NCBI GenBank assembly: GCA_032358255.1
Contig: JAULBX010026052.1
Span: 176,888-240,887 of the forward strand
Length of the DNA stretch: 64,000 nt
Direction: 5' to 3'
DNA from: Heterotrichella gracilis
Taxonomy: Eukaryota > Sar > Xanthophyceae > Tribonematales > Xanthonemataceae
The position numbers and the translations under genes were made by a program. Each line of letters begins with the position of its first letter. Position 1 is the stretch's first letter. Shown here piece by piece: positions 1 to 62,000 of this stretch. The notes under the pieces were generated by a model, which was not told the origin of the DNA, made no database searches, and saw only the letters and a program-made list of their open reading frames with translations.

Positions 1-1
1 G

Positions 2-3000
2 CTGGATGAGCTGATGGGGGAGCACCCGGGGGTGGATGCGCGGCTGACCATGTGCGTGGGGGGTGGCTGGTGGGGTGGGGTGTTGGAGTTGATGGCGGGG
101 TTGGATTTATGAGGTGGAATTAGTGTGGGTGGGCATTGGTGAAACGGCAGGGAGTAGCCGTAATTTTTATGTATGGCATGTACATGGTGCATGAAGTTCA
201 TTACAGGCGAAAATGTACGTACATTGCATTGGGTAGGCCACATGGCAATGCATGCATGGGCTGCCTGTCACCTTCTCAGGGTGCCCCGCAACCCTAAATC
301 CTTAACTCCAAACCCTGTGCATTCAGCACCATAAACCCTATCCCTGTGCATGCAGCATCGCCAACGCCATCGACGAGCAGGTCCCCCACGAGCCGCAGCA
401 GGACTGGGAGCACGACCTGTGGAGCCTGTACGTGTGTGCGCGCACGGCAGCGGCGGCGCAGCCCGACGGGACCCCACGCCCCATCCACACATGCCAGGTG
501 CGCACGGGGCAAACCACCCTGCATGCATCAATACCGCAGCTAGCGTACAATGTGCTTGTGAGGGCAAATTAGTCCACCCATGCACTTTCCTTGCACCATA
601 TGAATGGGGTTGCTTCTAGCACAAATACGGGGTCAATCGCTTAGTCCTGGAGAGAATTGGAACCTCTGCAGCACTACCACACCAAGCACCTCTACAGGAA
701 CAGGCAACTCCTGACTGCATTCCATGCATTCTGACTTTACACCATGCATGTTGACCTCCCCCCGGCCTCAACCCGCCCTCGCACCCCCCGCAGGAGGTCC
801 AGCAGCAAATCCGCGCCCTCATGGCGCACCTGGAGACCTCTGCGCAGACCTTTGTGGACGTGGACGTGCTCAACTTTGCGCACCGGCTCCTGCGCCTGGT
901 GGCGGAGAAGGTGGACGAGCTGCGCCTGGCATTCGGCAGCGGCACAGCCGGCCGGGGGTCGGAGGCAGGGTCCTCAGGCGGCTCAACACCCCTTGGCCCC
1001 GCTCCGCCACATGCCGCGCCAGCCGCGATTTGCATTGAGGACTTTGATATTCTCAAGCCGATCAGCCGCGGCGCGTTTGGGCGCGTGTATTTGGCCAAGA
1101 AGCGGGCCACCGGGGATTTGTTTGCCATCAAGGTCATGCGCAAGGCCGACCTGGTGCGCAAGAACATGGTGCAGAGCGTGCGCAACGAGCGCAACATTCT
1201 GGCCATGGCCAACAACCCCTTTGTGGTGAGTGCGGGGTATTGGGGTATTGGGGTTTTAAGGTTTAGTAACTAGGGTTTAGATGGTGGGTGCAATATTCTG
1301 GCCATGGCCAACAACCCCTTCGTGGTGAGTGCGGGGCGCACGGTTTTAGGGTTTAATCCCTAGGGTGTTTAGATGGTGGGGGCAACATACTGGCCATGGC
1401 CAACAACCCCTTTGTGGTGAGTGCGGGGTGCAGGGTTTTAAGGGTTCATAACTTGGGGTTAAGATGGGGAGTGCACACATGCTGGCGAGCTGTGGCAGGG
1501 CGGATGTGGTGCATGTGGTGGGCACATGTGCATGGTGCATGTGATGGTGAGCATGGTACGGTGCGCATGTTCATGATGCATGTGTATGGTGGGCTTGGGC
1601 GGGGGTGACACACCCTGCATTGGGCCCCTCATGCATGGATGAGGATTTGGGTGTGTATCACCATGCATGCATGCGCACCCTCACCATCTTGACACACCCT
1701 TTCATCATGCATGCATGCATCCATGCGCATCAACACATTGGTCCACCCTGCATGATGCATGCATGCGCTTACCCCCCCCCTTCCTTGCGCCACCTGGCCA
1801 CATGCACCCCAACACACACACCTGCACAACAAAGGATCCGAAAACCTGACCGCCTAACCTACCCCCCAGGTCCGCTTCTACTACAGCTTCACCAGCCGCG
1901 AGAACCTGTACATCGTGATGGAGTACCTGAGCGGGGGGGACTGCTACTCCCTGCTGCGCATGATGGGCGCGCTGGACGAGGAGGTGGCGCGGCTTTACAT
2001 CGCGGAGACCGTGCTGGCGCTGGAGTACTGCCACACGCAGGTTGGGAGATGGTGTGGGCAAGGGGGCGATGCATGTGTTTGCCCAATGCGCTGGTTGAAG
2101 ACCAGGCTGGGCAATAGAAAAGTCAAATTCATAATGTCCAATGCGCATGCTCAAGACCAGGCTGTGTAGTATTGCATGTAAATCACAATCATCATCAGTT
2201 TGCTTGCTTGCGGCAGTAAGACAACAGTGGATTGAAATTTATTGAATTGAGAATAGAACCCCTGTTTTGCCACCCGCAGGGCATCATCCACCGCGACCTC
2301 AAGCCCGACAACCTGCTGGTGGGTGGCAATGGCCACGTCAAGCTCACAGACTTTGGACTATCGTGCTTCGGGGTGGTGGAGACCGACTTTGGCCCCGCGC
2401 CCATGGTGCTGGACACAGACAGCGGCACCAGCACGCCGCAGAGCGGCTCCGCGCCGACGTCGCCGCGCCGCATGTCGGCCGCCGCCGAGCGCGCCGAGTC
2501 GGCGCTGCGCATGTCGCGGTTCTCGGAGGACGGGCGCAAGCGGCTGCCGTCGCTGGTGTCGGAATCCTCGGAGCCCCTGTCCCCGACCTTGGGATCCCCA
2601 AAGCTGCGGCTGAGCAAGGAGGATCCCAAGCGCGCGGTGGGCACCCCCGACTACCTGGCCCCCGAGCTGCTGCTGGGGACCGGGCACGGTCCCGAGGCGG
2701 ATTGGTGGTCCCTGGGAGCCATCCTGTATGAGTTCACGGTGGGGCGGCCGCCCTTCAGCGCCGATACCCCCGAGGAGATTTTTGACAACATCCTGGACCG
2801 GCGCATTGAGTGGCCCGGGGAGGAGGACATGTCTGCCGAGTGCAGGGACCTCATTGACAAGCTGCTCACCAACGACCCCATGCAGCGCCTGGGCCACAGG
2901 TGAGGAAACCCTACCAAAAGCCTTGCACAAACCCTGCGCATGTGCACCGCAAGCATGGCAGGTGCTTGCATGGCGGCCTGCGCAATACTGACCCCATGCA

Positions 3001-5299
3001 GCGCCTGGGCCACAGTCGAGGAACTCCTATCAAACCCACTAGCTTGATCACCATTCCCTTTTTAAGCAATTTAAATCCCTAGCCAGCATTGCGCATGATA
3101 ATCCCTCCAAAATCCATGCACAAATATGGGCCACCCTTGCCCTAAACCCTGAATTTCCCCTGCCCAGGGGCGCCGGCGACATCAAGATGCACCCCTGGTT
3201 CGCCGGCATCGACTGGGCCACCCTTGCACGCACCAAGGCCGCCTTCATCCCCTCGCTGGACCACGAGGCCGACACCTCCTACTTCTTCCCCAAGCCGGTG
3301 TCCCAGATGTCAATGGCAATGGACATTGAGCCATCAAGCAGGTGCGGAGAACGCACGAAGCCCACAACCCTGAAGAAACCTACGCCATGTGCTTGCTCTA
3401 GGCTTGAATGCTTAAATTGACATCATGCTGAGAGTAGTCGTTGGGAAACATTCATTCGAATTTAGGACTACATCAATGAACCGTGAAAAGAGAAGGCAGG
3501 AAGAAAAAGAGTAATAAGAAAAACAAAACGCTTGCATCCTTCAGATGGCGCCATGATCAGCCCCCGCTCTAAACCACCTAAACCCTGCCCTAAACCCTCC
3601 ATCCCCTTCCCCCAGGAGCGAGGACGGCGCCGTGCTGAGCCCGCGCCTCAGCTTCAGCCGCGGCGGCAGCAGCAACCTGAGCCTCAACCTGCACCGGGCC
3701 GCCTCCTCGCGCAGCTCCAAGTCCCTGTCCATGCTGGTGGGCAGGAGCACCAGCAGGGCGGCGCTGCAGTTTGAGGAGGCGGGGGGTGGGGGGGCCAGCG
3801 AGTGGGCCAGCGGGGCCTCCAGCCCCACGTGCAGCCATGCGTCCCTGCAGGTGGGTGGGGGTGGGGGGTGGGGATTGGGGGTAACAAGGTGGTGTGCATG
3901 GGCGTGGTCTTGGAGGTGGGGTGTGTGGGTGAATGGCCAGGGGGGGCAGTGGGGGGGGTGGCTTTTGGGTTGAGCAGGCATTAGGGCCAGGAGCTGGTGC
4001 AACACACCATCTCAGCTTGTGCAGCAGCAGCATTGGCAGCCTTTCTTGCATGTATCCTGGTCAGCACAATTCCAGACCAGGAGTGCATGGTGTGTCGATT
4101 GCACTTTGCACATGGCACACTCGGAAGGGTATGGCAGGGCCACAGTGCAACAAAAGTTACAACAAGCGTTAGGGGCTGACACCGCTTCCCTTTTTGCCGC
4201 AGGCCGAGGTCTCTGACCTGGGTACCCGCCCGGGCACAAGTGAAGCGCCCCGGGATGGCTTGCACGGCGACGCCGATCTTCAGGACATGCAGGATGGGGC
4301 CAGTGAGGCTGCTGCGGCTGGCTTTGGGTTTGCTGCCGGGGGCGGGTTTGGGTTCGCGGCCAGCGGTGGGTTTGGGTTTGAGAAGGGCGGCAGGGGGGGT
4401 GAGGAGGGCGACGGTGAAGGGGAGGAGTTTGACGGGGATGAGCTGGACCGCACCGACTTCTATGACTTCAGCTACAAGGTGAGCTGGAATGGAAGTGAGA
4501 AATAGATTGCGCAGCGCGTGTACAGTTTAGGGAGGGGCTAAGGGGCGGGTGTGCCTGGTACAAGCTTGAGCCACTGTGCCTGGATTATTACTATTACACT
4601 ATTATTACAAACGTGGATTACTATTATTATATTTATCACTGTGCCTGGATTGCACCTGTGTAGTTACATGCCAGTGATCTCTTGCAGCAACATCATCATC
4701 ATAGTGGCTGGAAAAGGGGGTTGTTACCAAAGACCGCAAGGCCAGATGGCGCATGGCTCTGACCTCCCCTTGCCCCCCTTGCGCAGAACGTCAACCTGCT
4801 TGCGGAGCACAACCTGGAGGCGCTGCGAAGAGCCTTTGCGCGCCAGGGCCAGTCCAACGCCGAGGAGGGCACCGAGGGCTTGGGGCAAGACTCGTTCAAC
4901 GCCATCCCCGTGATACCGCCCGGCATGCTCGGCAGCTCGTCCGCGGCTGTCGCTGCGCCCACCTCTAATGTGGGGGGGTATGACAGGGATCTCCAGGCGG
5001 TGCACGACGCATTCCACTCCCCCCCCTCTGACGCGGCGCACGCGGCAAGTGTGGGCGGGTATGGCATGGCAGCCGCTTCCGGTGCAATGCCCCAGGCGGT
5101 CCACCACTCCCCCACCTCCGGCCTAGTGCATGAGGCGTTTTGCTCCCCCCTCAGGCCCAGCTTGGACCTGGATTTGGGCACTGCGCCTGGGCGATACAGC
5201 GTGGATGAGGTCCTGCCCACGCGCCTGCACCACATCCTGTCCAACGACAGCGAGGTGTCGCAGGGGGATGAGATGGCGGACCTCATGCGCACCATCTAG
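2..5299 (+). CDS. IREH/MAST-like AGC serine/threonine kinase (5' partial)
   Basis: Nine exons are visible: 2-51, 356-431, 794-1225, 1870-2040, 2280-2899, 3168-3341, 3616-3850, 4203-4478 and 4787-5299. Their lengths sum to 849 codons with every phase closing. The kinase domain starts near 1027 ([21 protein letters not shown], with the glycine loop) and continues with AIKVMRK (ATP lysine), [10 protein letters not shown] (catalytic loop) and DFGLS. A long Ser-rich insert of about 80 residues follows, then [23 protein letters not shown], where the activation-loop to APE segment is typical of plant IRE/IREH and animal MAST kinases. An AGC C-terminal extension ([22 protein letters not shown]) ends the recognisable part. 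Upstream helical sequence matches the pre-kinase region of IREH proteins. The tail of about 350 residues is low complexity, including FGF-Gly repeats at 4315-4390. Plant members phosphorylate targets in polar growth and mitosis; the substrate here is unknown. The N-terminus lies outside the window. Confidence 0.9.
1195..1473 (+). repeat. Threefold tandem copy of an exon end plus 5' splice site
   Basis: The last about 30 nt of the kinase exon ending at 1225, plus the first about 60 nt of its intron, recur at about 1291-1382 and 1383-1473. Each copy carries the segment coding for [10 protein letters not shown] followed by gtgagtgcgggg. Only the first donor leads in frame to the next exon; read-through into the repeats meets stops by 1273. 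Confidence 0.9.
2872..3016 (+). repeat. Twofold copy of an exon 3' end in the kinase intron
   Basis: The exon end coding for DPMQRLGH (just before the donor at 2900) is repeated almost exactly at about 2990-3014 in the intron. In the second copy the donor GT has changed to cacagtcgagg, so it would be a poor splice site. Confidence 0.85.
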
Positions 5300-20452: not shown

Positions 20453-23400
20453 ATGGCAGAGCCACCGGCATCTACCCCGGTGGTACGCCCTCCACCAGCC
20501 ACCCACCCCACGCCCCTCCCCACGACCTCACTGTCCACCTCCTTCCCCACCTACCACCGCACCCCCTCCACTGCCAACGGCGCACCCCCCCACCCCCGCC
20601 CCCCTACCTCCGCAACCCCCACCAGCCACCACATGCCCCACTTCCAGCAGCACCGGCCACACCCTGTGTTCCAGGGCTTGCAGCACATGGCCACTGCCTC
20701 GTTCCAGTTGGCGCATAACCAAGCCATGGCGCGATTGGCGTTGTCTACAGGGGTGCCGACCGCATCGGGTGAGTTGCCATTATTGGCTGTGCAAGTTGCC
20801 ACATGCTCTCTTTGCAGGTACACCTGTGATGCGTGTGCGCTGGTGCATGCGGTCGCTGGCAACAAACCCTTCGCTCCCTGGAATGCGAACCCCAAAACCC
20901 TTCGGTTCCCTGGCGTGCGCCGTTGGGTTGAGACAAGTCCTCCTGCCGCATGCCTTTCTAGGGCAAAATGTTTGTTATCGACAAAATAGGCACAATATTC
21001 TCAGATATCTTGCCAAAAAATGCATATAACGAGGAGGAATATGGAATCGATTCAGGGCGGCCGGGCAGCCTCCACGCCCCCTCAGGCTCCACCACCACCA
21101 CCACCACCACCTCTGCTGCCCGCAAGGTGAAAAACACCCGGGGGCCTGCCCTGCATCGCGACGACCTGAGCACCAAGGCGCAGAATATGCGTGCGCTGGA
21201 TATGCTGAGCCGCATCAAGCAGACGGTGGCTCCGGTGATGCACCTGCAGCCAGAGGCCATCATGGGGCAGGTGGGGACTTGAATCTCGAAGGGTCGTAGG
21301 TAAACCCTGAGGTAAACCCTAGGGTGCTGCACCTGCAGCCAGAGGCCATCATGGCGCATGTGGGACTTGAACTCTAAAGGGTGGTAGATAACCCCTGGGG
21401 ATGTCGGATAAACCCTGCGGTGCTGCACCTGCAGCAAGAGGCCATCATGGCGCAGGTGAGTCGGAACCCTGAGGGTCTTGGATAACCTCTAGGGTGCTGA
21501 CTAAACCCTTATGGTCTTGACGGAAGTATGACTGGATTTAAGGGTCGCAGGAAAATGCTAGGGTGCTGACAAAAATGGTGCCCTTCCTGCTTCCCTTGCT
21601 CAAAATGAGTATTTTGGCCAAGGCGTTTATTCAATGGGTGGCCGATCGACCCTGTGATTGTTGCAGCCCGACCGCTTGGTGATGGCGCTGCTTGGCGGGG
21701 GAGAGGCGGACTGTGCGTGGGCGCTCAACGCGCTGGGCATGCTGTCTGCCAACCCCAAGTATGACCATATGCTGGCCGGTGTGAGTGGCCTGCTGCCTGC
21801 GCTCATTGAGGTGCGCTGATTAGGGTTCATGTGAAGGGTTTTCGGGGTCGTGGGGCAGACGTTATGGGCCATGATGGGGTGCTAAAGGCATGCAGTTTGT
21901 TCACCCAAGGATGCCAGCATTACTTACCGCAGCACATGAAAACGAGATCATGGGTACTATCCGAGAAATACGTATGCAACTGACTGACTGTCGCATGGCT
22001 GCACCCCCCACAGGTGGTGGTGCGGGGCCTGCAATCCCCACAGGCATTGGAGTACACCTTGGATGATGACATGGCACTTGGCCCCCCCTCCAAGCGCCAG
22101 CGCTCGGCGCCACCTGGCGCCCCCCAGGGCTGGTGGTGGGAGCGGGAGGAGGGGTTGTTTGCGGAGCCAAGGGGGGTGGGGGGGAGGGGCACTCAGGCTG
22201 TGTGCGCATCCAGTGTGATCAGGTGAGACCCTAGGATGGGGTTTGAGTTGGAGGGGGTCCCGTCTCATGTGCTGCCCCTGAGCATGCGCCAATGTAATGC
22301 ATTGCATTGCATGGTCAAATCCCTAAACCTAAACGAACCCAAGACCCTAATTCATTGCATTGGTAATTTCTCTCCCTGTCCCATGCCAGGCAACACGTAC
22401 CGCCACCGCATCCCCTGAGGCACCCAACCCATGCACTGATCTCCCCTCCCACACCCCACCCTCACCCTCCTCCTGCCCCTACAGAAACCTCTCCTTCCTC
22501 CCCGCACTGCAACCCACCCTGGCCAACCCCGAGTCCATCCGGCCCATCGCATCCGCCTTTGCCGCATGGCAGTCCGACCCCACCCAAGCAGCCACCGAGG
22601 CCCTGCTCAACCTCACCGAGGCCCTGGGAAATGTGGCGCATTTGGCGAGATTGCAAGGGGAGCACGAGGCGATGTGGGGGGGCTTGCTGACGGGGCTCAT
22701 GGCCGCTACCCGGGAGGACCTGGCGCCAGTCGTGCTGCGCAGTAGTGCCACAGGTGGGTACAGGGTGGTGGGGTGTTTGGAAGGGTTTTTGTAGGGTTTT
22801 GGATGGGGATTTTGAGGGTGGATAGGCACGATTGCATTTGTGTCCAGGTGGGACGCATCCACCAGAATTAGCTACAGTGCGCTAACATGAATAAAATTTA
22901 ATCGAGTGAAAAGCTTTTATTCAGGCGAATCCCGGCGTAACCCAGCTGACAGTACTTGTTCCTGACCTACAGCCACACTGGTTGCCCTGGCCCGGCGCCC
23001 CAACTGCGAAGCCTTCTGCCGCCACCTGGCATCCACTGGCCAGCCACATGGCCAATCGCCTGGTCAATCACATGGGAAGCCACATGGGCAATCGAATGGT
23101 TCCGCCTGGCTGTGGGACCTCACCCAGCTGCTGTGCATGAGCCTGGAGGGTGCAAAAGAGGAGGTGCTCCGGTGCCTGGCGGGGGAGGCGGGCACTGTGG
23201 AACATCTTCCCCCGGGTGGCGGCAGCGCTGAGGGGAGGGAGTGTGCCGCGGTGGTGCTACAGGCGGAGACGTGTGGGGGGGCGGTCAAGGTGGGGGTGGT
23301 TAGGTCGCGTGCCTGGTGTGCAATCATGTTCCATCAGCACATGTGGAGCGATGGGGAAGGTTGGGGAAATGATTTACACTGGTGTGGTTATGTTGCGTCA

Positions 23401-35800: not shown

Positions 35801-37533
35801 TGGCGAGCCGGATGTTAGCGCCTTATGGAACACAATTATATTACCCTATACTACCCTCTTATTTATGCTCACGCCATATGGAACACAATTATGCTGGACT
35901 TGTCAATTGGCATACGGTACATTGCATAGAGAGAGGCATTGCATTGCATTGCATTGCATTGAATAGCACCCCGGTGAATGCACGAGGGTTTGGGCGGTGG
36001 GCAACTGGCCATGTGAACCAGACAGCGCATTGCACCCTCCCCCTCCCCACCACCACCACCACTGCATGTGAATCCGGGCAAGTCATTACCGATGCGTATT
36101 CAGCTAGGCGCATTTAAAAATGGTACAAACAATGCCAGGACAGGACTGAGTGGCACATGCTTGTGCATGGTTGATTGCTGATCTGGCCTTTGTGGCTGGT
36201 ATGCGTGTAATAATAATAATTCAGCTAGTGGATGCGATGTCAGACAAGTCATTGACTGGCCGGGCCCACAAAATTCTTTGCAAAAAACTTTACCCCCTTG
36301 CCCCCTGCGTCCCCTCAGCCCCCCCCCCGTCCCACACCCACCCCACCTTACTGTACATGTGGCGCAGCCACTGCCAGTACTGGCTGGGCAGCAGGTATGA
36401 CCGTGGGATGATTCGGAAAGCTCCATCCCCATATGCTGCCACCAGGCTCCCTACCAGCCTGTCCTTCTGTGATATTGCAAACATCCCGGGGACACAGTTC
36501 ACCTTCTGGCCCGGCTGAAGCTGTGGGTGGGCGGTCAGGCACACCTGCGGGGGTTCTTTGAATGACATGTAACAAAACAATAAAAGTTTCAGAATTATGG
36601 TACATCTATATTCTGTTTATCAGGACCTCATGTCGCGTGGGATCAATAGATGGTTCAAACGGAGCCAGGAAAGAGCTGCGTGGCGCCGCATGTGCAAGAC
36701 TGACTGCTACTCTGGCTATTTTGCTGGAATGCATGTAACTAACTAACTGTTTACCAGAAAGGGTGGTGTCGGTAGCAGGCTTTGAAAGCGATGCGCATGT
36801 TGGTGAGGTTGCAGGTGCAACTTTGACATGTGGGACCTTGGTGCCTACATGTACAGTGGGTGGTGCGGGGTGCACTCCGGCGGGGTGCACTGGTGCGTGT
36901 CAGCAAGGTGAACCCTTTGACTAGGGTGTGGAATCTCCATGTGATAGGGTCCCTGGGCCGCTCACCTTTCTACTGGTGATGTACACGTCCCATTGGGACA
37001 GCTTGTGGTAGCCCTTAGGGACCAGGTGGCGCCCGTGGGTGGACCCGGCAACTATCGCACCCCCCTGGGAGGCCTGGCGGGCAGAGGACACATCAGATTG
37101 AATATGAACATAGTTGCAGCAATATAGCCAGATGAGGAGTCTGCCTAGTCCAGCTTGCGGCCCCCGGCCAGGCCCGATATCTGAAGGTGTGACGTCTCAA
37201 GGTACATAACGGTGAGACCTTAAACCCTACCGCAAACCCTAATCACGCGCACATGACCCAAAGCTGGCACTCGCTGTCTGGTTCAAGTCAATTCCAAATC
37301 ATTCCAGTCACCCACAGGGTCTGTCGTGTGGGGTAATGCCGTGGTGGGGTAAAGGAGGATGTCCGCCCCTGGTGTATGCACCCGGTAAGGGCGCTTGTAC
37401 CACATGCCCCCCGCCCGCCGCCCCCCGCCAATACTACTGCACTCACGTTAATTGCCTCCCTGACTAGTGTTGTCTCCCCCTTGCCAAACGTGAACTCGTC
37501 AAAGTAGAACCTGACAGGGCCAGCCAGCGCAAC
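32859..37533 (-). CDS. Tubulin tyrosine ligase-like protein (5' end unresolved)
   Basis: Eight minus-strand exons with closing phases are 37533-37447, 37064-36966, 36544-36347, 35787-35573, 35253-35074, 34784-34631, 34339-34241 and 33935-32859, together 702 residues. TTL-domain blocks appear in order: KVNCVPGMFAISQKDRLV and GAFRIIPRSYLLP; WILKENLHRGKGVAIVNRR (ATP-grasp substrate segment); HKYPLVQHFVKDQMLVGGRP; VVSNVRPLRMYLFQGGVVVF; and VDSNYHPWILEVNALPSL, with the conserved E-V-N metal site. TTLL enzymes add tyrosine, glutamate or glycine to tubulin tails on ciliary or cytoplasmic microtubules; which one cannot be told here. A C-terminal extension of about 350 residues without clear domains follows. 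Exon 1 is not identified: a minus-strand ATG at 38248 opens a frame that could be the N-terminus, but the join was not resolved. Confidence 0.85.
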
Positions 37534-39503: not shown

Positions 39504-42500
39504 ATGGCTAGGCAATGCACACACCACTGGGGGGCACCACTGCTGGCCTTGGCGCTGGTTGCGGTGCACTTGGGGCTGATGCAGTGTCAGGAGTACATGA
39601 CCTCCGAGGTAAGGGTCTTGGAAGGGTTTTGAGGTCAAAGACTCTTAACACATGGTGGGACTGCAACCCTGGGATTGGAAAAGCACCATGTGTCCAGTGA
39701 AATATCGTACTGTGCGCCATCATCTGCCGGATTATCAGAAGACACCTACATGCTGTACGCACGCCAGTTACATTTGTGCGCATCATGATGATCCTCCTGG
39801 CGGGTGGTGATCCTGACTACGACTCCACCATATCTGCAACCGCCACTCATGAGCATGTGTGGTTCCAATTTGTATATATTAGGCAAAATACACATCATCC
39901 CAGCAATGCAGCCAGATGAGCGTTTTTTCGGCAGTAGCTCCAGAGGAATTGCTGATCGACCCAGGGGTCTGACATTTCCCAACCATTCTCCGACCCCTGC
40001 AGGTCACCAGCCTTGTCCACGGCACCCCCTGCGATGAGCAGTACGACGCCATCCTGGCCACCTACAACGAAACATGCAAGGACACCATCATGCACGGACT
40101 GGAGGAGACCAACACAGCGCTGTGCCCTGACCAGGACGACATTGCAGCGTGCATGCAGGTGAGTCAGGGATCCCAAACCCTGTATGTAAATCCCAACCGG
40201 GCTGTGGGGATTCCCCACAAACCCATGTGCACTGACCAGGACGACATTGCAGCGTGCATGCAGGTGCGGGGGATGGAAAATCGTAAACCCAAACATTTTG
40301 AACCCTAAACCCAAACGTATGGGAACCACCGCATCACAGGATGGTAGTGGTTGTAGGGCTACTGAGGCCCTTTGCAAATCATGCTTTCTTGCATATATGG
40401 CGCGATTCGCTCCCTGCATGCCTCCCTGGGACTGCAAATCCGGCCCGCGAGTGAGCATGGTTTGGGGCGGGCGCTCCATCTCTGCTTTTATATATCTTGC
40501 TATGATTTGTCTGCACCCCATTCTAGATTTGGCAGGCAGCATGAGCCTGGGTTGTGTGCTGTGCAGCTCCAGAAGTCTGCCTGGATGAGCTACGCAGAGA
40601 GCTGCGAGCTGTTCAAGTGGGCGGGCAACTACGACTCAGAGGTGAGGCGCCAGGTCAAAACCCTGAGAAGGGCTTTGTCATATTCGGATTGCAATCCAAT
40701 GGCGCCACATGCACGTGCTTGGCAGCGGGCATAGCACGTGGGATGTACAGGTGTAGGTTTGGGGATGTAGGGTTCATTGATCATCGTCTCGCCTGGTGTG
40801 CTGATTCCTGGCTTGAGCCATGACCCAGGCCTTTCTGTTATGCTGCTTGCCCTTCATCCCCGGCTTGCGGCCATCCCTAAAACCTTAAAAACCCTAATAT
40901 CTTGCTGCCAAGTCACAAACTCTGAAACCCTACGCCTATGCTGCCACCCTACAGGCCGCTAGTAGCGAGAGTGAAGCTTCCACCTCCTCGTCGGAATCCT
41001 CCCCTCCGGAGTCGGCTGCACAGTCACCCTCCGAATCTTCTCCCTCACCCAGCGAGTCTGCAGGTGTGCAGTGCATTACGTGGACAGGACACAACTCACT
41101 CGATTGCTGCATGTGGTGGTGGAATGCATCCACAATGCTGAGGGTTGAGGTTTGTGCTGGGGCGGCGGGATGCATCCACGCTAGGATCTAGGGTTTAGGG
41201 TTTCCGCTGGGGCGGTGGGGTGTGCAGACAACAAAGCCAGCAACATTGTCTGCATGCTCAAGGTGCCCGTGTGGTTCAAGGTGCACTGGCGGAGGGCCTG
41301 CATGGCTTTTCTAGGGCTTTGTCTGGCGTGATAGGTGCTAAACCCTAAACCCATTGCCTGCCACTCGTTCACTGCCCCTGTGGTGGTCTCTCGCAGGAAC
41401 AGAGTACTACCCACCACCTGGGGAGGCAGAGGCGGGATACTACCCACCACCCGCTGAGGCAGAGTCAGGATCCTACCCACCACCTTCAGAGGCAGAAACC
41501 TACCCACCCCCCGCAGAGGCAGAGGCTGTAGGAAGCCCACCACCCGCAGCTGCTGCAGCAGCTGAAGAGAACGCGGGGGTAGCAGCTGCATTGGCTGGGA
41601 CCGAGGAGCCAGGTGCATCACCTGCCACTGGGCGCCGCCTGATGGCCACTGCTCAGTCGCCTGCTGCAGCCGAGAAGCGGGGAGAGGCAGCATCCCCAGC
41701 TGAGGCCGAAGAAGAGGAGGCGGCAGAGAAAACCGCAGCAGCAGGATCGCCCGCAGAGGCCGAGAAAGAGGAGCAGGCACCCTCGCCTGCCGAGAGTGAG
41801 GCAGAGCAGTATGCAGAGGAAGAGGATGAGGGTGTGGCAGCTGCGCTTGCTGGCACTGAGGAGCCGGAGGTGGCCGAGACCCAGAAAGCTGCCTCTGCAC
41901 CATCTGAGAACAGCGAGTCTGAGTCTGAGTCTGCGTCTGAGTCACCCAGCGAGGCGGAAGGTGGGCGGGGATCCCTCACATTGCTCATCGGGCGTGGCTG
42001 GCTGTGCATGCGCTCTGTTTGAAATTACAAATGTAGGGGACGTCACAGAGTGGACAGTGGGGAGACATGCGCGCCTCGTTGCTAATCCTCAAGCTTTGTG
42101 CCAGTGCAAGACAGCATCTATACCTTTTTTTGCGTTTTGCCCTGATTGGTCGATTACAGGTGACATGTGGCTTTGTGGGCAAGCAGACCGTGCGCTCAAT
42201 CTGGTACCACTGCGTGGCCCTGCACGGCAGCGGGTTGTGTTCCCTGTCCGTTGTTATGGCACTTCCCATTTTTGACGTTGACCCGTGCACAGCAGTTGTC
42301 GTGAAACAACCTCTTGTGGATGTTCACATGCTTGTTTCCAATTTTGGCACCACAAGTAGTATATATATTTTTAATGGCTATGGGGGTGATAATGTTCAAT
42401 AGGTGTTTTTATATCTTCAGTCCCCCCCCCCATTTTTACTGGTTGATTGTACAGGATTTGACCTGCGCTCCATGCCCCTTCCCTTGCAGGCGAGGCCGAG

Positions 42501-45996: not shown

Positions 45997-48900
45997 CTAG
46001 CCTCTATCCGGCGGGCCGTAGCCCCCCGATAGCGCCGCGAGGAGGTTCTCCGGCAGCATGATGCGCCCGTTGCCCTGCATCATGGACATGCCGCCCAGCT
46101 CGCCGAATGGCTCCATGTCGGCCGCGGGGCGCAGCGGCTTGGGCCCGCACAGCTCCCCTTCCTGCTCCTCCAGAAGGATCTCCAAGGCGCCGTCGGGGCG
46201 CAGCAGGTGGTGCCATGCGGGGTCGTTCTGCGGTGGGGGAGGGCGGGGTGGATATACAGCATGATGGGAAAAGCCTGCTGCTGGCTACAGGGACCAGGCG
46301 GTTCTCGAGCAGAGAGGTAAGGGTGGCTGGTGTTGACACAGGCGTTGGCTGCATCATGGGATTGTTGTACAAGGGTTTACCTGCCTACTGCCCCTGCCTG
46401 TAGCCATGGTGTGCCAACCTGCCTGTACCCGAATCACCAGACCATGCAGCTTGAGAAGAGGCAACGTACTGATAACGCTGCCTGCCACTGCGTGCCATAG
46501 CAAGCCCCCATCACCTAAGGAGGTTTATGAGTCAACTATTGCAGCTTCGACCCTCTGGGCACTTCACCCGCGTCAGGAGCAATAAGATTACATAGATTCG
46601 TCCGTATCATCGTACAGTAATACCTTTGCCCCCATTCCCCACACATTCAAGCCCAATACCTCTGCCCTCATTTCACCAGAATTTTACCCCACATCCCCTA
46701 CCTCCAGCTTTGCCTTGAGGCTTAGCGAGGTGCCGATCTCCGCATCATTGCTGCCGCAGATGTCCTTGAGCATGGTGGCAAGCTCAACCATAAACCCTAG
46801 GCTAGGGCACCGCTTGCCCATCTCCAGGTCCACGTTTGCCTCGCATCCATCGCTCAGCCGCTCAAGGAGTCCCCTCCGCCCGCCAGCTGCAGCCTCGGTT
46901 CCTGGGGCGCCCCGCACCTACACAAAACACAAACAAGCATTTTATTGAAAATTGTATTTTTAATTACATAAGTTAAGATTTTTTTTATCAAAGAAGGACA
47001 AATCTTGTTTCCCTTGTACCCAAAACACTGAGCAGGTTTGCTGCCTTCCCTTCGTCAAGGAGGAGGAATGAGCGATGAGACATCGCCCATTCTTCACTGA
47101 CCACCACCATACACTACCGTATGGTCACCCAGTACCCGCACCCGCCCCGCACCTCAAACAGCGGCAACCACAGGTCGTCCACCGAGCTCACAAACGCGCA
47201 CTTGCACACCCGCAGCACGCAGCACTGCAGCGTGTTGTTGGTGGGGTGGTCAAACGCCAGGTGCACCAGGGGGGCAATCAGCTGCGCCTGGGTGACCGAG
47301 GTGTCGATGAGCGGGTGGCCCCCCCGCAGGATGTTGCTCACCACCTCGGCTGCCGCCAGGCGGTGGGTGCCTACCGAGGGCTTTGGGGTGTGCTTGGAGA
47401 AGGTGGTGCGGTGGGCGGCGGGCACAACCTGGGTCGGGGGATAGAGGGTGTTGTGGCTGTGGCCGCAAGCATGAGCATGCAGGTGTGCGTGGCGGGCGGT
47501 GCTGTGTGCTCCAAGGCGGGTGTGCCACAAGCGGTTGGGTGCTACAGCACCACCATGCCGTTGAAGTGATCAATGGCTATGGCAGCCCTTGACCAGACCC
47601 CAAAATGCAACGCAAGCTACCAGAGGCATATCATGCGTGGAAATATTAAAAAAGCAATCCCGCTCAACAACAGCCCCATCAACCATGCCCAACATGCAAT
47701 GCTCCCCTCCTTGCACAACGTAATACTCCCACGCCATGCACATGCTGCTAACTAACCAATACACCAATGCACACCCCACCACCTTCATCCACACCCCATC
47801 CCCACATGCATTATTTTTTTAGATGCGCTGCCCTAGACCTCCATTTACACTCATCCTCACCTGCAGGATCTTTGAGATGAGCCGCACATTGTCCAGCGAG
47901 TGGCGCGTGGCGGGGCGCAGGTCTTCCAGACCCGTTGAGGCCATGAAGGGTGTGGCGCATGAGGACATCTCGTCATCCAGCTGCACCGCAAGGTACCGCA
48001 GGGGTTCGGCCAGGCCAGGCACGTCCACGGGGTCGGCGCGCAGCTGCTGGTCAACCTAGGGAGGGGCAGGGTACAGGGTTTAGGGTCCAGAGTTTGGGAT
48101 TCGGCCAGGCCAGGCTCTCGGCGCTGGTGAACCTGGGGAGGGGCAGGGTACAGGTATTTAGATGATTTACTGATGGACTATTTTGCCAATTAGGTCAGCA
48201 GCTTACGCGGCTGCCCTCTTGCATATGATGCAGGCTATAATGCTGGTGAGCATGGCAGGGGCCATGGCATGCACAGCAGCATGCGCAAAAACAACATGCA
48301 AATCCAATCGAGCTTGCATGCGAAGACGGCAGTCACCCTGGCATATGGCACCGCCTCCTACCCAACACCAACGCCGCCCCGCACCCCCCCAAAACCCGCC
48401 AACCCCTCGCACCTCCTCCCAGCACCGCGACGCCTCCACCTCGGGATCCGGGCCCCCACCGCCCGCGCCCGCGCCCGCCTGCGCCGGCCCATCCGGCGCA
48501 TCATCCTGCCCTATCTGGAAGTACTGCCGCAGCAGCGGGCTGTGGGCAAGCAGGTCCGCGGTGGGCTCTGTCTTGCTGGCAGATGGCGAGGCGCCCGCGC
48601 CGGCGGCGAGGCGCCGCCGGCCCTTCCCCCTGCGCCGCTCCCCCGCACTGCCCGCCTCATCGCTGCTGCTGGCTTCCTCCTCTGGGGGCGCCACCAGCTC
48701 CACAGTGAGCAGCTTCCGGGCCTGATGGAGCGCCTCAAGGGCCGCCGCACCCAGCTCCCCGTCGATGGGGTTGCCTGCCATGTTGAGGGAGATGAGCTCG
48801 GGGGCGCCCCCCTGGCCCAGCACGCTGCACAGCACCGCCAGGCCCGCCTCGGTGATGTGATTGTTGCGCAGGTCAAGGCTGGTCATCTGGTCATTGCCCT

Positions 48901-53069: not shown

Positions 53070-56000
53070 ATGGCCGACGAGCAGTACTTTGATGAGGTTG
53101 CCGAGGAGGAGCCTGAGGAGGCAGAGCCTGAGGAAGGGAAGCCCGCTGCTCCTGCTGAGGATGGGGAGGGCGATGCAGACAGCTCAGACGAGGATGATGG
53201 CGAGAACGAGTACGACTACAACGACAAGTTCCTTGTGCGAGACGACGAGGATGAGGAGCAGGGAGACGACACCGATGCTAGTGAGGAGGAGAAGGCCAGG
53301 CGCAGGCGGAAGAAGAGGAGGAGGGAGCTGGAGCTCGAAGAGGATGACTATCTGCTGCTCGAGGATGCCAATGTGGTGAGTGTGGTTGCCTCTGTGTGTT
53401 TCAAGGCCCTGCAGAGGAGGATACCCGTGCACCTGATTCAAGCTTTTTTCCACAGGATGTAAGGCGGCCTCAGGCTGGGAGGCGACGCATTCAGAAACGC
53501 TTCGAGGCGGAGGTTGCCCCTGCTGGCAAAGACGCTGCTGAACAGCTGCGGGACAGTCTGTTTGGCCCGGATGACGGAGGTAACTATAAAAGTCACTGGT
53601 CGTTGTTATGATAGCATACAAATGTGTTGCATGCAATGGGAGCACTTCGTATTCGCTTGATGGGTCATGGTACCATATGCATGCATGTGCACTAGTTAGT
53701 TACATGCCTTCTGAAAGGGCAGCTAGATAAGCAGGCAATAGAGTACAAGCGTGGGCCACTGCTGCTCTGGTACTGCATGTACCATGTCCTAATGTCCCCA
53801 TGCGCATGGCAATCAACGCCCCAGCACAACACATGCCAAATGCACGCGGTTACCAACCCTTTCATCCACTGCTGATGCACACTAAAATCACCCTCACCGC
53901 GCTGTCCACCCCTCCGCCCCACAGCCCTGGAGGATGAACTCGAGCCTGAGCGTGTTGAGCGGGAGGTTGAGGAGGAGGATGACTTTGAGGAGGCGGATGA
54001 GTTTGACGACTTCATCGACGATGACGAGGGGGGGGAGCGCAAGAAGCGCAAGAAGCGGCTCAGCATGTTTGGGGGGCAGGTGTCGGGGCCCGCGCTGCAG
54101 GTGGGGAGCCAGCACACACGCACTGGGGGCACAGGGGTCGCTAAGCTCACTGTTTTGCCTGGCGGTGGCGCGCACTGCACACGTGCATACACATACGCCT
54201 CAACGCGTGCATCCATGCACCGAAATTGTCATCAGGCATGGCGGTCATAGCCAGGCATCTCCATTGTACGCCCCACATCAGCTTGAATCAACTCCCCTCG
54301 CCCTTGCACACTTAACCCCCTGACCCACCCACCCACCGCATCGCAGGAGGCATTTGACATCTTCGGCGACCCCTCTGACCTGCTTGAGAAGTACGCTGCG
54401 CGCAAGCAGCAGGGCGGGGATGACCTGGACTACATGGACGAGCTGGAGCTCAGCGACGAGGAGGCGGCGGAGGAGCTGAGGCAGCAGAAGGTGGGGGGGC
54501 AGCGGCGGTGGGGGTGGGGGAGGGGTGGTGTGGTGGTTGGCGGCATGGTGGCAGTGGTTAGAGGTGTGGGTCTGTGGCATGGTAGTGGAATACATGGATG
54601 AGCTGGGGTGCAGAAATTGGGGGCCCGGGTGGGGAGTGGATTGCTGGTGGTCTGGCATGTTTGTGGCGGTGGTGGTGGGTGCCGTGGTAATGGTGCGTAC
54701 TGTGGTAGCCAACGTGGTCCGCTTGGCGAAAGTGGCACAAACCTCATCCACAATGTTGGGGCATGATGGCGAGTGCTGGGTTGTGCATTCGGTGAGGTGG
54801 CAGGTGCTCATGTGTGGTGGTGCACCACAGCAGAACAGGCAGTCCGGTAAAATTTGTAGGGAGTTTGCTACAGTCACGAGCTGCCACACACATCATCGTC
54901 TGCATCACACCGTTGCGTGCCTCCATGGCTTCAAGGGAGCATTTCTTCTGTTAAGCACCACGGGGCACCGTATGCACGCCCTTTGTGACCGCACCATGGC
55001 TGCAATTGTGCTCTAAACCCTAAACCCTAATGGTGTCACTCCCACCCGCCGGCAGGAGGACCGGCAGCGCGCCAAGGCCGCGCAGAAGGTGCTGGAGGCC
55101 ATCGACCCCGAGACCATGGCGCGCCACTTCATGCGCCCCGAGGACGACGACATCCGCGCCACAGACCTGCCGGAGCGCGAGCAGCTGTCGCGCGGCGCCG
55201 ATCCCCTCGACTTTGACCTGGGCGAGTGCGCGGCGTGGGTCCACCGCCAGCTGTTTGCGGAGAAGGCGCCTGAGCGCAAGGCCAAGGTGGTGGTGGAGGA
55301 TGGGCGGCTGGAGGTGGAGGGCAAGCCGCCTGGGAGGGAGGTGTGGGGGCGCGACGAGCTGGAGGGCACGCGCGTGGAGCGGGGCGAGGAGGGGGTGCAC
55401 CTGGGCAGCAGGAGGTGGGTGGCGGTGGGCGGTGGGGGTGGGGGGCATGGCAAATCTGACTCAGATTGCGCCAAATTATGCATGGAAAGTTGTGCACGCT
55501 GCATCTTGGGGGGCTGGTTGCAAGGCTGCAGCTCCTGCACTAGTTGGAGCATTCTCTATGGGTTCTGTGAGTTCCCATGCTGCATCCTGATCTTTGCTTC
55601 TTGCGCCCATCTGCCAGCCACCAGGAGTCAAGTCACGAGCATCAGAGCCCCCACCCTCTGCTTGAACTGAATTATCCCCCAACGCCCGCGCTACACCTCG
55701 CATCACCCACACACACCAGGTGTATGCAGCCACTGCACAAACCCTCTCACTCCCCTCTCTCCCACGCAAACAAATAATAAAGCCCACATTGGCACACGCA
55801 TGCAGGGGGCTGCGCCGCGGCCGCAATGAGGACCAAATTGCTGCCTGGCATGCTGATCTTGTTGTCCAGGAGGAGCTGCGCAAGAGCATCCGCCAGGTTC
55901 TAGCACAGATCTACGAGCGGCACGAGGAGGTGCCGCTCATAGCCATGTACAGGTGCGGCGGCGGGCCCAAGGGTGTGATTTAGGGTGTAGGGTTCAGGGT

Positions 56001-59000
56001 TAGGGTATAGGGTTCAGGGACAGAGCGCGAGGAGGTGCCGCTCATAGCCATGTATCACATGTGATACAGGTGCGTCAGCGGCCCCAAGGGTGATTTAGGG
56101 TGTAGGGTTCAGGCCTATAAGGACCATGTAAGTAGGCTGCTCATCGCCATGTACAGGTGCTGCGGCGGCCCCAAGGGTGTGATTTAGGGTGTAGGGTTTG
56201 CAGTCTGGACTCCAGGCCCATGAGCTTATGAAGAGGTGCCGCTCATAGCCATGTACAGGTGCGGCGGCGGCCGTGAGGAAGGTGGTGTAGGGTGTAGGGT
56301 TCAGATCCACGAGCGCCATGTAGAGGTGCCGCTCATCGCCATTACATGGCAAGGGTGTGATTAAGGGTTTAGGGTTCAGATTCTGAACTTCAAGTCCATC
56401 AGCCTACCAGGAGGTGCTGCTCATTGCCATGTACATGAGTGGCGGCGGCCCCAAGGGTGCGATTAAGGGTTTAGGGTTCAAAGTCTGAACTTCAAATCCA
56501 TCAGCCTACCAGGAGGTGCCGCTCATAGCCATGCACAGGTGGGACGGCGGTCCCGAGAGGTTTGATACTAGGGTGTAGGGTTTGGACCCATGAGGGCCAT
56601 GGTGAGGTGCTGCTCATCGCTCTGTGCCCCGCTTGCCACAGGAAGGAGATGTGTGGCGAGCTGCTGTGCATGCGCAAGACCGACCGGCCGCTCATCACAG
56701 ATGACAACGACAGCACGCAGGACTACCCGCCGGGGACGATACAGGTAAGGGACGGGCAGGGGGAAAGAGGAGGGGGTGTACATTTGGCATAGCATGAAGG
56801 GGCACATAGGCTGTGCACTCAGCATGGGAGGGGGCAGTTTCTGTGCACAAAGGGGTGGTAAGCGGCACAACTGTTTGGCCACCATCTGCCACACTGGCAA
56901 CATAAATTCTGGCTTGTGGACACCCCAATCCAATGGCTGGGGTGCACAGTTATTACATATTTACAATGTATTTATTATATATCCACCATGCCGCTTTGAC
57001 CCACCTTGAGTCCGGCCCCTACCCCCCCCACCCAGGCCAAGCACCGGCGCATCCGGCGCTGGGAGGCGCTGTGGGCTGTGCAGCAGTGGTCGGTGCTGTG
57101 GCGCCAGCTGCAGCGCACCAAGGAGGTAAGGGCGCGTGCGTACACTGAGCGGATGGAACGCGCAGGCAGCGAGGAGGAGCGGCTGGCCATTGAGAAGTGC
57201 CTGGAGATGCTGGAGGAGCCGCTGGAGTCCATGGAGGTGGGTGGGAGGGGAGGTGATGGTGGGAGGGGGGGCATGGTAGTAGTGGTGGTGGTGGAGTCAG
57301 TGAGGTGGGTGGGGAGGGGTGGTGGTGGTGGGAGTGGGGTGGATGGGTGGTGGTTTTGGGTCCAGGAATTTTGCTGGCTATACCTCCTGCCCTGAAATGT
57401 TCCCTCTTGCTGAAAACCCACCATTCCCTCACAATCCCCCACCTGGCGCAGCCGCTGGATGACATTGAAGCTGAATTACACCTCGCATGGCCGTGAATCG
57501 CCACCAGAACCATACTCTGCAGTGTGCATCCAATGGTACATGAATCCCCCTTGCGCCATACAAGACAGCCCACCATTCATCTCCCACCCTGCCTTGCTCC
57601 CTGTTGTCCTGGAAAACCACCACAGCCCCACCACCACCACCCCACCACCAGCCCCTCACCAGGCCCCCCTATGCGCAGTTGCTGGATGACATCGATGCCA
57701 AGTTCCGGCTGGCCACTCAGCTGCCTCCAGACGATCAGCTGAGCCAGCTGTCATTGGACGACCCAGCCGCACCCCGCAAACCGCAGCGCAGCACCACATA
57801 CACGGAAGGTCAGCAACAGGGGTCGGGAGGGGGGTAGTTTGTAGGGTTGAGCAGGGCAGTCATGTTGGCACTCTGTTTTGTGTTGTCTTCACAAACGTAT
57901 ACAACGTGTTTTTATTGCCAATAAGTGCAAGTGGTGGAGGCCGCGGTCATGGCACCCTAGCCCTTAACCCCTAAACCCCAGCCTACGCGTGCACACTGTC
58001 CTGGCTGTGCGCCCCACACCTCAAGCCCTAAACCCTTGCCTGTGGGGCCCACACCTCAAACCCTGAACCCTCGCCTGTGCGCCCCACACCCTAAGCCCCA
58101 AACCCTCGCCTGTGCGCCTCTCGCTTCAGGGCGCAAAGCTGGTCTGGGCGAGTGTGTTCTCTCAATGGGCATGACCGCGTTCCAGTTTGGGGAGAACCTT
58201 GACCTGCAGTTCCGCAAGAACGACGTGGTGGACATGAAGATGTCGCCGCAGGAGTATGCAGAGGGATACGCGATTCATGTGGGTGGCATGAGCAAGGGCT
58301 GGGGCAAGGGCAACGAGGAAAATAAAATATCAAACATGAATTATGTTTGAGCTGAAGGGAATACAAAGGGTTTAATGAAAACAAATCCGATCTCGGTGGG
58401 TGGCAGGAGTTGGCGAGGTGTGGGCGGGGGCAAGCACAAACAAGGAAAATAATATATGGTACAGTTAGAAAAAACTATCCTTTTATTTGTACAAAAGTGT
58501 ACCTGTTGAGGCAGTATTTCAAAGCTTTGGTTGCCAGGGGGTGTTTATGATCATTATGAGATTTAAAGCAGGTGCACTTTATCTTTGTTGGTGCTCTGCT
58601 TCTCCACCCCCTGCCACCACCAAAATTCCGGAGTGACTCCCATTGCCTGACCCCACCTCTCATCCCGTCCTGCAGCGCGAGTTTGGGACTGCCGATAACG
58701 TGCTCAAGGCGGTGGTGGCCATGTGTGCGGCTGAGATCGCTGCCGAGCCCAACGTGCGGCGGGCGCTGCGGGACAGGTTCAGGGACAAGGCGGTCATCAC
58801 CACAGGTAGGGAGGCTGGGATTGGCGTACGTCGGTGGCTAGGTTGCAATTCTTTCTCGTAGTTGTAATGTTGTATACTGGTGTGGACGATACACCACACG
58901 TACTTATGCCCCTTCCACCAGGTGTGACCTCGCCACCTCCCCAACATGCATGGCAACCACTCTAAACCCTAAATGTGTATGGCAATGCCACAAGGCACCC

Positions 59001-62000
59001 CCCCCCACACACACATGCTGGCCACCTACCACACACACAAGCACATTGTGACCCCACATCCCCTCTGGCCCCCCAGAGCCCACTCCTGCTGGCGAGTCTG
59101 CCCTCGACCCCTTCCACGTGTACGGCAGCGTGAAGCGGCTGGTGGGCAAGCCCTGCCGCCAGTTCCACAACAGCGACCAGTACCTGCAGGTGCACCTGGC
59201 CGAGAAGGAGAGGCTCATCACCTCGCGCATCGAGGTGAGGGGATAGGGGTGGGGGATAAAATGTTTGTGAGTATGTGGGTGTGTGGGTACCTGCAGCGGA
59301 GGAGGAGGGGCGGGAGGTGCTGCGCATGGGCATGGGCGGGGTGTATGTGGGGTGAGGTGGGTGGAATGATGTGGGGTGGGTGCAGGGTGACAATGATGCC
59401 GCTGGGTAGGTGCACCCGTTTGGATTTCTAGTATCACATCTCTGCATAATTGTATCTCCGTTGTCTTACTGTACCACACAGTGCAGCATGCGCAAGGCCA
59501 ATACAAAGCCACTGCCATCTGTCACGCCCCTCCTTTCACTCTCGCACCCATTGTGGCCCCCACCTACCCAACACTGAAATTAATTAACAATACTAGAAAG
59601 AGTGTAAAAGATATTGGAGTTTTATTTAAATCTTTTAACCCACCCACCTACCTACCCCGCAGCTTGAGAAGCACGAGGAGGTGATGAGGGAGCTGGTCGA
59701 CCTGTACGTCAGCGACGGCCAGTCGCCCTCAGCCGCCGCATGGAACCAGGTGCGCACGCAGGTGCTGCGGCAGGCAGTGGAGGGCGCGCTGCTGCCTGTG
59801 CTGGCACGCGAGCTGAGGCTGCAGCTGCTCCGCGAGGCGCAGCACAAGGTGGCGGTGGCTGCCAGCGAGGCGCTGTGGGACCACGCGCAGATGCGGCCGC
59901 TGGAGGTGGGTGGTGATGGCGGCGGTGGTGGTGGTGGTGGGTGGCGGTGGGGTGGGTGGGACGGCGCCGTGATGCGGCTGCTGGAAGATAGGGGTTGGTG
60001 ATAGCAATACAAACAATTATTACCAGTTCCATCACAATCACCTGTGTTTTTCTGGGTTTGCAGGGTTTAGGGTTTAGGGTTTTACAGCACTTGGGTCTGA
60101 CCACAGATGTGCCACACAGCTACACCCATCTGTTGCAACGCACCACCACTGGTGGCGCCGTGTGGATGTATTGATATAGATAGTAGAATATGAGTGCCCA
60201 TGCCGTCATCCATGCGAGTGTCAACTCCATTAGCAACAGAAACCCCTTGCCGTCATAAATGCGAGTGACAACGCCAATAACACAAATCCTCGCGCCGCCC
60301 AGTTCCGGGTGGTTGACAGCGACGACAAGATCGAGTCCCTGCGCATCATGGCCTGCTGCTGGGGGCCAGGCACACCCGCAACGACCTTCGTCATGCTGGA
60401 CCCTGCGGGGGGGCTCATCGACCTGCTGCACTGCGGTCAGCTGTCGGGCCAGATGAGGTCAAAGCGGTCTGGCGGGATGGATGCCATGGCCTATGATCTG
60501 TTCACGGACCCCAAGAAGGTGGGTGTGGAGTTGGCGGTGGTGGTGGTGGTGGTGGTGTGGGTTTTAGGGAGGCTGTCTTGTGCCAGTTGGTGGATCCTAA
60601 CGTGATTTATGGGGCGCGGCGGGGTTGTTTTCCCCAGTGAAGGTGGTTGATGTGATGGTTTAGGGATTTAAGGTGTTTTACACTGAAAGAGGTTCGATTT
60701 GAGGGCGGCTCAGGTGACGGGGGTGCTACGGGGGTGCTCACCACACACGTCAACCTTGTATTCACAGGGCCTTAAACGCCGAACAGCCCTACTATGCATG
60801 CTGCACCTCGCCAAACCCTAAACCCTAGTCAGCTCTACCATGCTGCACTGCGCCAAGCCCTAAACCCTAAGCAGGCCTATCATGCTGCACCCCGCAAGTA
60901 CCCACCCACCCCCACCCCCACCCACCCCGCAGTCCCGGGATGCTGAGCGCCTGAAGCAGTTCATCATGGAGCACCGCCCGCACTGCATAGTGGTGGGTGC
61001 AAGCGGGGTGGAGTGCAGGGGGCTCAAGGCGGATGTGGACGCGGTGCGGGACCACCTGCTGGACAGGCATGCGCGATTTCTCACGCGGCTGGAGACAGGT
61101 GGGATATGGGGGGCTTGGCAGGGGAGGAGGGTGGGGAGCGGACGCATTTGATACATGGTGGTGGTGTGTGTAGGATGCGTACTGAAGGGTTTTTGTATTG
61201 CCCCCTTGCCAACCTCGTCCCATTCTGCCCCCACGCATCAATGCCCCCCGCTGTCTTTACCCCACCACACACTCTTTCCCTCCTCAGGCAACCTGGACAC
61301 GCGCTACGCCGATGAGGGTGTGGCCCAGGTGTGGGAGAACAGCGTGGCTGCCCAGGAGGAGCTGGGGGAGCAGCCGGGCATCGTGCGGCGGGCGGTGGCG
61401 CTGGGGCGCATCATGCTGGACCCACTGGGGGTGCTGGCGTCACTGTGTGGTGAGCAAGGCGGGTTGTGGTGGCAATCAGTGGTGTGGTGTGTGGGGGGCA
61501 GGGGTGTTTACAATCATACTGGACCCTTTGAGGGTGCTGGCGTCGCTGTGTGGTGAGCAGGGGGGAGTGGCAGTTGTTTGTTTGCTAGTTGTATGCATTC
61601 CTGCAGTACAGCATTGCCCTTGCACAGCTTGCACCGTATGGAGGACTAGCATGGAAGATACCTTGTTATAGTAGTATTGTATTACAGTGATATTGTAATG
61701 ATTACAACACGCCTTCAAACATTTAAACCCAAGAGTAAGGTTTATTTTGCGCTTACCCTGCCCCCTTCTCCTCCTTCTCCCCCAGGCCCCAGCCGCGACG
61801 TGCTGTCCCTCAACCTGCACCCGCTGCAAAAGGCGGTGATGGAGGAGGAGCGCATGGCTTCGGCGCAGGAGACAATCATGACGGCGGTGGCACAGGTGGG
61901 GTGGTGGGTGGCGTGTGTGTGTGGGATGGGAGTGGTCATGAGCGCGGTCATGACAATAGTGGCGGCGGTGGTTTGCAGGGGTGGGTCGCAGTGTGCTTAA

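Follow-up and report, generated by a model that had tools for sequence, protein, structure and literature searches.

What makes an intron grow at its ends? The question is raised by a 64,000-nucleotide (nt) stretch of the genome of the alga Heterotrichella gracilis (C354:176888-240887, hereafter the window; C354 is contig JAULBX010026052.1 of an assembly of 68.5 Mb and 903 contigs), in which the first-pass annotation had listed six introns in four genes that carry extra copies of the last nucleotides of the preceding exon together with the splice donor, and had proposed that introns are lengthened by duplication across the donor at any locus. Self-BLAST of the window and alignment of the repeated rows in register recovered every listed site, each with the same order of exon end, donor and intron. 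As described below, comparable copies occur in about one in eight of the introns sampled from the genome, at acceptors as well as at donors.

Copied exon–intron junctions in the window

The six sites, all on the plus strand, have copy spacings of 89-116 nt and exon parts of 26-40 nt. At site A (window positions 1191..1486), the exon end at 1191-1225 and its donor recur at 1290 and 1382 within the intron 1226-1869 of an AGC/Greatwall-like kinase gene, with the rows 1191/1290/1382 81% alike over 207 nt. Site B (2874..3034), in the same gene, has its exon end 2874-2899 copied at 2990-3015 inside the intron 2900-3167 (2874/2990, 89% over 45 nt), and TC replaces the donor GT in the copy. Two copies are again present at site C (21230..21509), at 21323 and 21415, where the exon end is 21234-21270 and the intron 21271-21666, while site D (40121..40266) has a single copy at 40226-40263 that equals the exon end 40121-40158 at 37/38 positions (40121/40226, 97.6% over 41 nt; intron 40159-40566). 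The remaining two sites belong to the gene for SPT6. Site E (55920..56620; intron 55953-56641) consists of the original, an exon end coding for EEVPLIAMYR with its donor and then a telomere-like spacer, followed by six or seven degenerate copies with a period of ~105 nt, some of which are called small exons by the gene finder; at site F (61410..61565), the exon end 61410-61449 is copied at 61513-61552 within the intron 61450-61785 (61410/61513, 87% over 53 nt).

The copies at sites A, B and F can be placed within introns because the spliced readings align with known proteins across those introns. The kinase (1..5299, plus strand), an AGC-family member whose best solved relative is Greatwall, aligns with Greatwall across both introns once those of sites A and B are spliced out, and SPT6 (53070..64000, plus strand, continuing past the window end) aligns with a known protein across the site F intron once that is removed. 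The piece of SPT6 around site E had no match in the PDB, and for sites C, D and E the intron assignment is that of an ab initio gene model. A further, short case, absent from the earlier list, lies on the acceptor side of a minus-strand intron (48046..48154; 48046/48123, 32 nt, 93.75%), where 10 nt of exon start (from 48055 downwards) and the adjoining intron end are copied 77 nt upstream within the intron.

Frequency of the copies in a wider sample

The window was combined with 236 kilobases (kb) more of the same genome, which after exclusions gave a sample of 280 kb. Left out from the counts were C1:20001-30000 (L021) and C100:20001-30000 (L022); these two stretches have a GC content of ~35%, compared to 51-59% in the other stretches, and may be foreign or organellar contigs. 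The genome matches the chlorophyll a/b-binding family at 43 places, and a CP26-like protein encoded on C354 has as its best solved relatives chlorophyll-binding proteins of chloroplasts, part of them named CP26 and several of them from green algae; these matches pointed to a green alga, and a search for the RuBisCO large subunit gave no match. A gene finder self-trained on the 280 kb, with GT or GC and AG imposed as intron ends, predicted 69 genes and 362 introns, and the removal of genes with <300 nt of coding sequence, inner exons <45 nt, introns <60 nt and introns with a flanking exon <40 nt left 309 introns, each of which was compared with 40 nt of its flanking exons (match at score >=34).

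The end of the preceding exon is copied in 25/309 introns and the start of the following exon in 18/309, such that 40/309 introns (~13%, about one in eight) possess at least one copy and three possess both kinds. One match on each side (window 56456, donor; window 56411, acceptor) stems from site E copies miscalled as exons by the gene finder. Controls were nearly empty: exon ends matched the upstream intron in 1/267 comparisons, exon starts matched the downstream intron in 0/255, exon middles gave 0/255 and 0/224, and permuted pairs of exon ends and other introns gave 1/3079, which, set against 25/309 for the exons' own introns, shows that the copies are not due to chance. Inverted copies of exon ends or starts were found in 0/309 introns each at the same score, and the copies are in direct orientation only. 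The comparison of exon ends with their downstream introns, which the first-pass annotation had named as the check on its proposal, gives counts in this sample far above those of the controls (25/309 against 0 or 1 per control) and supports the proposal in outline. Its restriction to the splice donor does not hold, acceptors being hit too (18/309), and the donor-only description is attributable to the view of a single window.

Cases occur on C354, C2, C5, C20 and C500, with none in the 10 kb taken from C200; the feature is present at several places of the genome, and the copies differ widely in age. Introns with a copy exceed the others in length (median, 432 vs 306 nt), and duplicated introns cluster somewhat by gene (34 pairs vs 20.6, P 0.037). 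Within genes there is no trend, with a mean relative position of 0.49 for duplicated introns and 0.51 for the others, and an effect of position in the gene, such as R-loops near gene starts might cause, was rejected on these values. The parts of the earlier description that the sample supports are independence of locus, copies of differing age (exon parts 0.78 to 1.00 alike), a period near 100 nt and the greater length of affected introns.

Structure and decay of the duplicated unit

The duplicated unit is about 70-200 base pairs (bp) in length, with a median near 105. The exon part has a 10-90% range of 30-67 nt at donors (median, 40 nt) and of 25-66 nt at acceptors, and the spacing of the copies has medians of 103 (donor) and 109 (acceptor), with 10-90% ranges of 89-162 and 67-199. 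The exon share of the unit exceeded 0.65 in 0/23 donor and 0/17 acceptor cases, whereas random placement is expected to yield such a share in 37% of the visible donor cases (Kolmogorov–Smirnov P 4e-7); this test omits 2/25 donor rows and 1/18 acceptor rows (L027:421, window 56456 and window 56411), the alignments of which cross arrays.

A slight majority of the cases (23/43) are plain tandem duplications in which the intron part is repeated too (z >= 3.5). Among the remaining 20 there are 11 with an exon part >=0.92 alike and yet an intron part that is not recognisably related, including sites B and D, L025:4068 and C354:134552; the spacer of site B shows no recognisable relation to the sequence 3' of the copy (z 0.4) and that of site D cannot be aligned with it (z 0.9). 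Slippage, one origin suggested when the copies were first noticed, fits the 23/43 whole-unit tandems but appears not to fit these 11/20.

After duplication, the copies decay neutrally. Mismatches of copy against exon number 18/300, 13/306 and 35/304 at codon positions 1, 2 and 3 in donor cases and 17/201, 12/198 and 31/194 in acceptor cases, an approximately two-fold excess at position 3 over positions 1 and 2 of the kind predicted for an unconstrained copy beside an exon in which only silent changes are allowed. The GT is retained in 20/25 donor copies and the AG in 11/18 acceptor copies, the latter below the neutral expectation, as though an upstream acceptor were disfavoured. Identities of the exon part span 0.78 to 1.00, which indicates a long-running process, and duplication is probably still active.

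Distribution of duplications among junctions, introns and intergenic sequence

When the 280 kb were searched for direct repeats with a spacing of 40-260 nt, 42 duplication loci were identified at junctions (22 donor, 16 acceptor, 4 both) and six within introns, with one exon-internal locus, two loci at gene edges and no intergenic locus in 87 kb. These counts were compared with a simulated null in which duplications of similar size were placed randomly, exons were held fixed save at silent sites, the rest of the sequence decayed and spacings were <=180. Among 2500 simulated events, 535 fell within exons or on gene edges and were not counted, and the remaining 457 junction, 642 intron and 866 intergenic events left 407:463:648 visible duplications. 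The junction share in the simulation was 0.27 (0.47 within genes) against 42/48 in the genome, and the observed ratio of 42:6:0 departs from the simulated one both overall (P 2e-18) and within genes alone (P 4e-9).

Telomere-like words at the copy joints

Telomere-like words (CCCTAAA) occur <=30 nt from the copy joint, on its intron side, in 21/39 cases, while matched distances in other introns have such a word in 722/10224 (7%) and other positions in the same affected introns in 38/394 and 23/208 (~10%). A word is present in the first 60 nt of 19/25 donor-duplicated introns and of 51/284 others. Two consecutive perfect telomere repeats are present in only 5/45 affected introns (score >=30) and 11/264 others. 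The words are linked to the duplication process, and they are also a general component of these introns: the most frequent 7-mer among the introns tested is AAACCCT, and telomere-like words have a density of 9.9 per kb in introns and 2.1 in intergenic sequence (1052 vs 98 in shuffled introns). Introns without copies have words in 45/269 of the first 60 nt, 36/269 of the last 60 nt and 19/231 of the middle. Near acceptors the words are mostly C-rich in sense, possibly as the G-rich strand would bring false AGs, and at donors both orientations occur. Separately from the duplications, the ~10x excess of telomere-like words over the shuffled expectation in introns may reflect a role as splicing elements.

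Spacers and a paralogue pair

Two tandem paralogues (C354:84004-87535 and 89333-92920) have copies at 85050 and 90421, respectively. The exon, spacer and copy (C354:90421-90582) are 98.5% alike between the two, compared to 79-88% for their other exons, and the other introns of the pair have no match between the paralogues. The shared stretch stops 9 nt beyond the copied donor. The pattern resembles gene conversion limited to the exon, with the paralogue as donor and the copy annealing to the recipient's own exon end, and would account for this one of the cases in which the exon part is closely alike and the intron part is not.

When spacers were compared within the sample, 12/40 matched elsewhere, and, the paralogue pair aside, the matches shown (<=3 for each spacer) were <50 nt and telomere-like or simple in look. 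A search of the genome with common words skipped returned only self-matches for the regions of site D, site F and L025. A mobile insert was accordingly rejected, with no family seen among the 40 spacers in the sample or the three regions in the genome, and a target-site duplication of fixed length is at odds with an exon part that varies over the ranges given above for donors and acceptors. An intron element of ~60 nt at C354:85607-85666 (L012:5607-5666) matches at least 38 further genomic positions, with 78-97% identity among the best candidates, and represents a short dispersed repeat.

Discussion

The copies are interpreted here, with a probability of roughly 0.6, as scars of error-prone DNA repair at exon–intron borders. 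An event would start with a break, or with stalled copying, near the border, and repair would write a border-spanning stretch of ~70-200 bp twice, either through the fill-in of a staggered break or through re-copying and end joining. Telomere-like repeats (CCCTAAA/TTTAGGG) would often be left where the new joint borders the intron, with filler being optional, and telomerase or the fragility of such repeats may have a part in this. The duplication would be tolerated as the outer splice site presumably still works, the extra copy being spliced out and the protein unchanged, after which the copy would decay neutrally and some units would multiply into arrays. Copies could additionally pass between paralogues via gene conversion anchored in the exon. 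The net outcome would be introns that grow at their ends.

A number of results weigh against this interpretation. The gene models were made ab initio, without transcripts, and arrays yield copies called exons (1/25 donor, 1/18 acceptor); with a single assembly, and neither a relative nor a second allele, no event is polarised and no empty site was seen. The three array rows omitted from the exon-share test have a share >=0.8 taken at face value. Microhomology at the breakpoints has a mean run of 2.4 against 1.8 in the control (n=43), the longest runs coming from arrays, and a value barely above the control provides no signature that names a repair pathway. Telomere-like words are lacking at 18/39 copy joints, and clusters of words coincide with a duplication in 24/134 instances near splice sites (18%), 1/43 mid-intron and 0/63 intergenic, all lower bounds as some arrays are missed, with 0/7 for exonic clusters. 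As 0/63 intergenic clusters are duplicated, the words are not sufficient for duplication, and they were rejected as its sole cause. Further, a cruder null, in which doubled footprints were moved at random in 2000 placements, nearly erases the deficit of intron-internal loci (6 seen, 8.1 expected) and cuts the junction excess to two-fold (42 vs 21.4; largest of the 2000 placements, 33), while the intergenic deficit remains (0 seen, 13.6 expected).

The size of the junction bias depends on the null model chosen. The simulation is trusted above the footprint null because it was the duplicated unit, and not the doubled footprint, that had to hit a place. The bias may be the result of mutational targeting, or of selection and visibility beyond that which was simulated. 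A bolder form of the repair interpretation is offered tentatively, as less likely than not: exon–intron borders would be duplication hot spots, at which a border-referenced process recopies ~25-65 nt of exon and a longer intron stretch at donors and acceptors alike and acts as a main driver of intron growth. Candidates for such a process include the stalling of recombination intermediates at the step from conserved exon to diverged intron, and the repair of breaks there with the help of telomerase.

Telomerase could also be at the root of the duplications, with telomere repeats added at breaks near junctions and the broken stretch sometimes duplicated in the process, so that the words mark the cause; this is possible but doubtful. 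The words at 21/39 joints, the rank of AAACCCT among the intron 7-mers and the duplication at 24/134 splice-site clusters (a lower bound) are in agreement with it, as is target duplication at 4/25 primate insertions of telomeric repeats (PMC2246262), but duplications are rarer in rodents (6/130; PMC2246262) and horse (3/66; PMC7215372), 18/39 joints have no word, and donors have words in both orientations. The words also crowd the splice sites of copy-free introns, where they may be splicing elements or pre-existing fragile sites. An explanation free of any targeting, in which small tandem duplications arise at random and those spanning a junction are tolerated and stay recognisable through the copy held by the protein, is considered unlikely. 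Under it, the neutral pattern of change, the 23/43 plain tandems with the intron part included and the footprint placement of intron-internal loci (6 vs 8.1 expected) would all be anticipated, and exon-internal duplications would be purged; the simulated junction share of 0.27 (0.47 within genes) is nonetheless far from 42/48, 87 kb of intergenic sequence contain 0 loci and the proportion of exon within the unit varies too little.

It is very improbable that the copies are functional, serving as decoy or alternative splice sites under selection, as the retention of GT in 20/25 donor copies, which might suggest this, is close to what neutrality predicts when some 5-6% of sites have changed, only 11/18 acceptor copies retain AG and substitutions are found at all codon positions, like free sequence. 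Less credible still is a mobile element or introner that duplicates its target on insertion. The subset of cases with a spacer unrelated to the sequence after the copy has the appearance of a target duplication with an insert, but no spacer family is evident in the sample, site D, site F and L025 matched only themselves in the genome search with common words skipped, and the length of exon that is duplicated varies more than a target-site duplication would allow. Equally implausible is the birth of introns via duplication of an exonic AGGT segment, the same mutation type and one described in several eukaryotes (PMC3443670). Intron birth would leave the exon-end copy abutting the acceptor and the exon-start copy abutting the donor. 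The cases here do not agree with this, as their copies lie ~100 nt from the junction they derive from, mostly in introns that extend for hundreds of bases more.

Transposons and random small insertions are generally held responsible when introns lengthen. Tandem duplication was reportedly treated as an intron source by Gao and Lynch in 2009 and by Hellsten in 2011, and the Puchta group is said to have obtained tandem duplications from paired nicks in plants, with units of tens to ~100 bp and sometimes filler, although the breaks in that work were experimental and had no tie to exon borders. Tandem genomic duplication is likewise described as an intron source in a further account (PMC3443670), with which the cases here share small tandem duplications that meet splice sites and are invisible in the protein; they differ in that no intron is newly made, a junction already present being duplicated and its intron gaining length.

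The suggestion in the first-pass annotation that no system of such regularity had been described was too strong, as the intron repeats of Daphnia and the insertion of telomeric repeats are close relatives (PMC4202315, PMC2246262, PMC7215372). The newly gained introns of Daphnia pulex contain internal direct repeats that were ascribed to repeated staggered double-strand breaks, with passive intron growth proposed, and that are recent in natural populations (PMC4202315). As in Daphnia, direct repeats in introns are above chance here, and an origin in break repair and passive lengthening are proposed, but instead of repeats inside young introns there are units of ~70-200 bp that straddle junctions, including exon and splice site, and telomere-like words at many joints. 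Interstitial telomeric sequences are inserted during double-strand break repair, with the target duplicated at the minority of primate, rodent (PMC2246262) and horse (PMC7215372) loci already cited, and human insertions are reported to be randomly placed, with none in exons and 31% in introns (PMC2246262, PMC7215372). Direct duplication is common to both, and telomere-like words occur here at 21/39 joints, whereas in Heterotrichella duplication is the dominant feature and the repeats amount to short, degenerate words. Concentration at splice junctions does not appear in the available parts of the Daphnia and telomeric-insertion accounts (PMC4202315, PMC2246262, PMC7215372), and the literature searched, without subscription papers, yielded no description of junction-biased duplication; the junction bias and the link to telomere-like words look new. 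A single recognisable type of event marks ~13% of the sampled introns, is dated by its own decay, affects both kinds of junction and is coupled to telomere-like words, and which repair pathway writes intron sequence becomes testable by strain comparison in one alga.

Other repeats in the window

Apart from the copied junctions, the window contains an imperfect self-complementary stretch at 51250-51428 (185 nt, 72%) and, in a minus-strand gene, a direct repeat of 91 nt (36120-36210 / 36650-36738) with the two members 74% alike and 530 nt apart. Tandem units of 35, 42 and 41 nt are present at 58005-58118, 60797-60895 and 63130-63208, respectively, all intronic by the gene model, and the consensus units of the arrays at 58005-58118 and 60797-60895 include telomere-like words.

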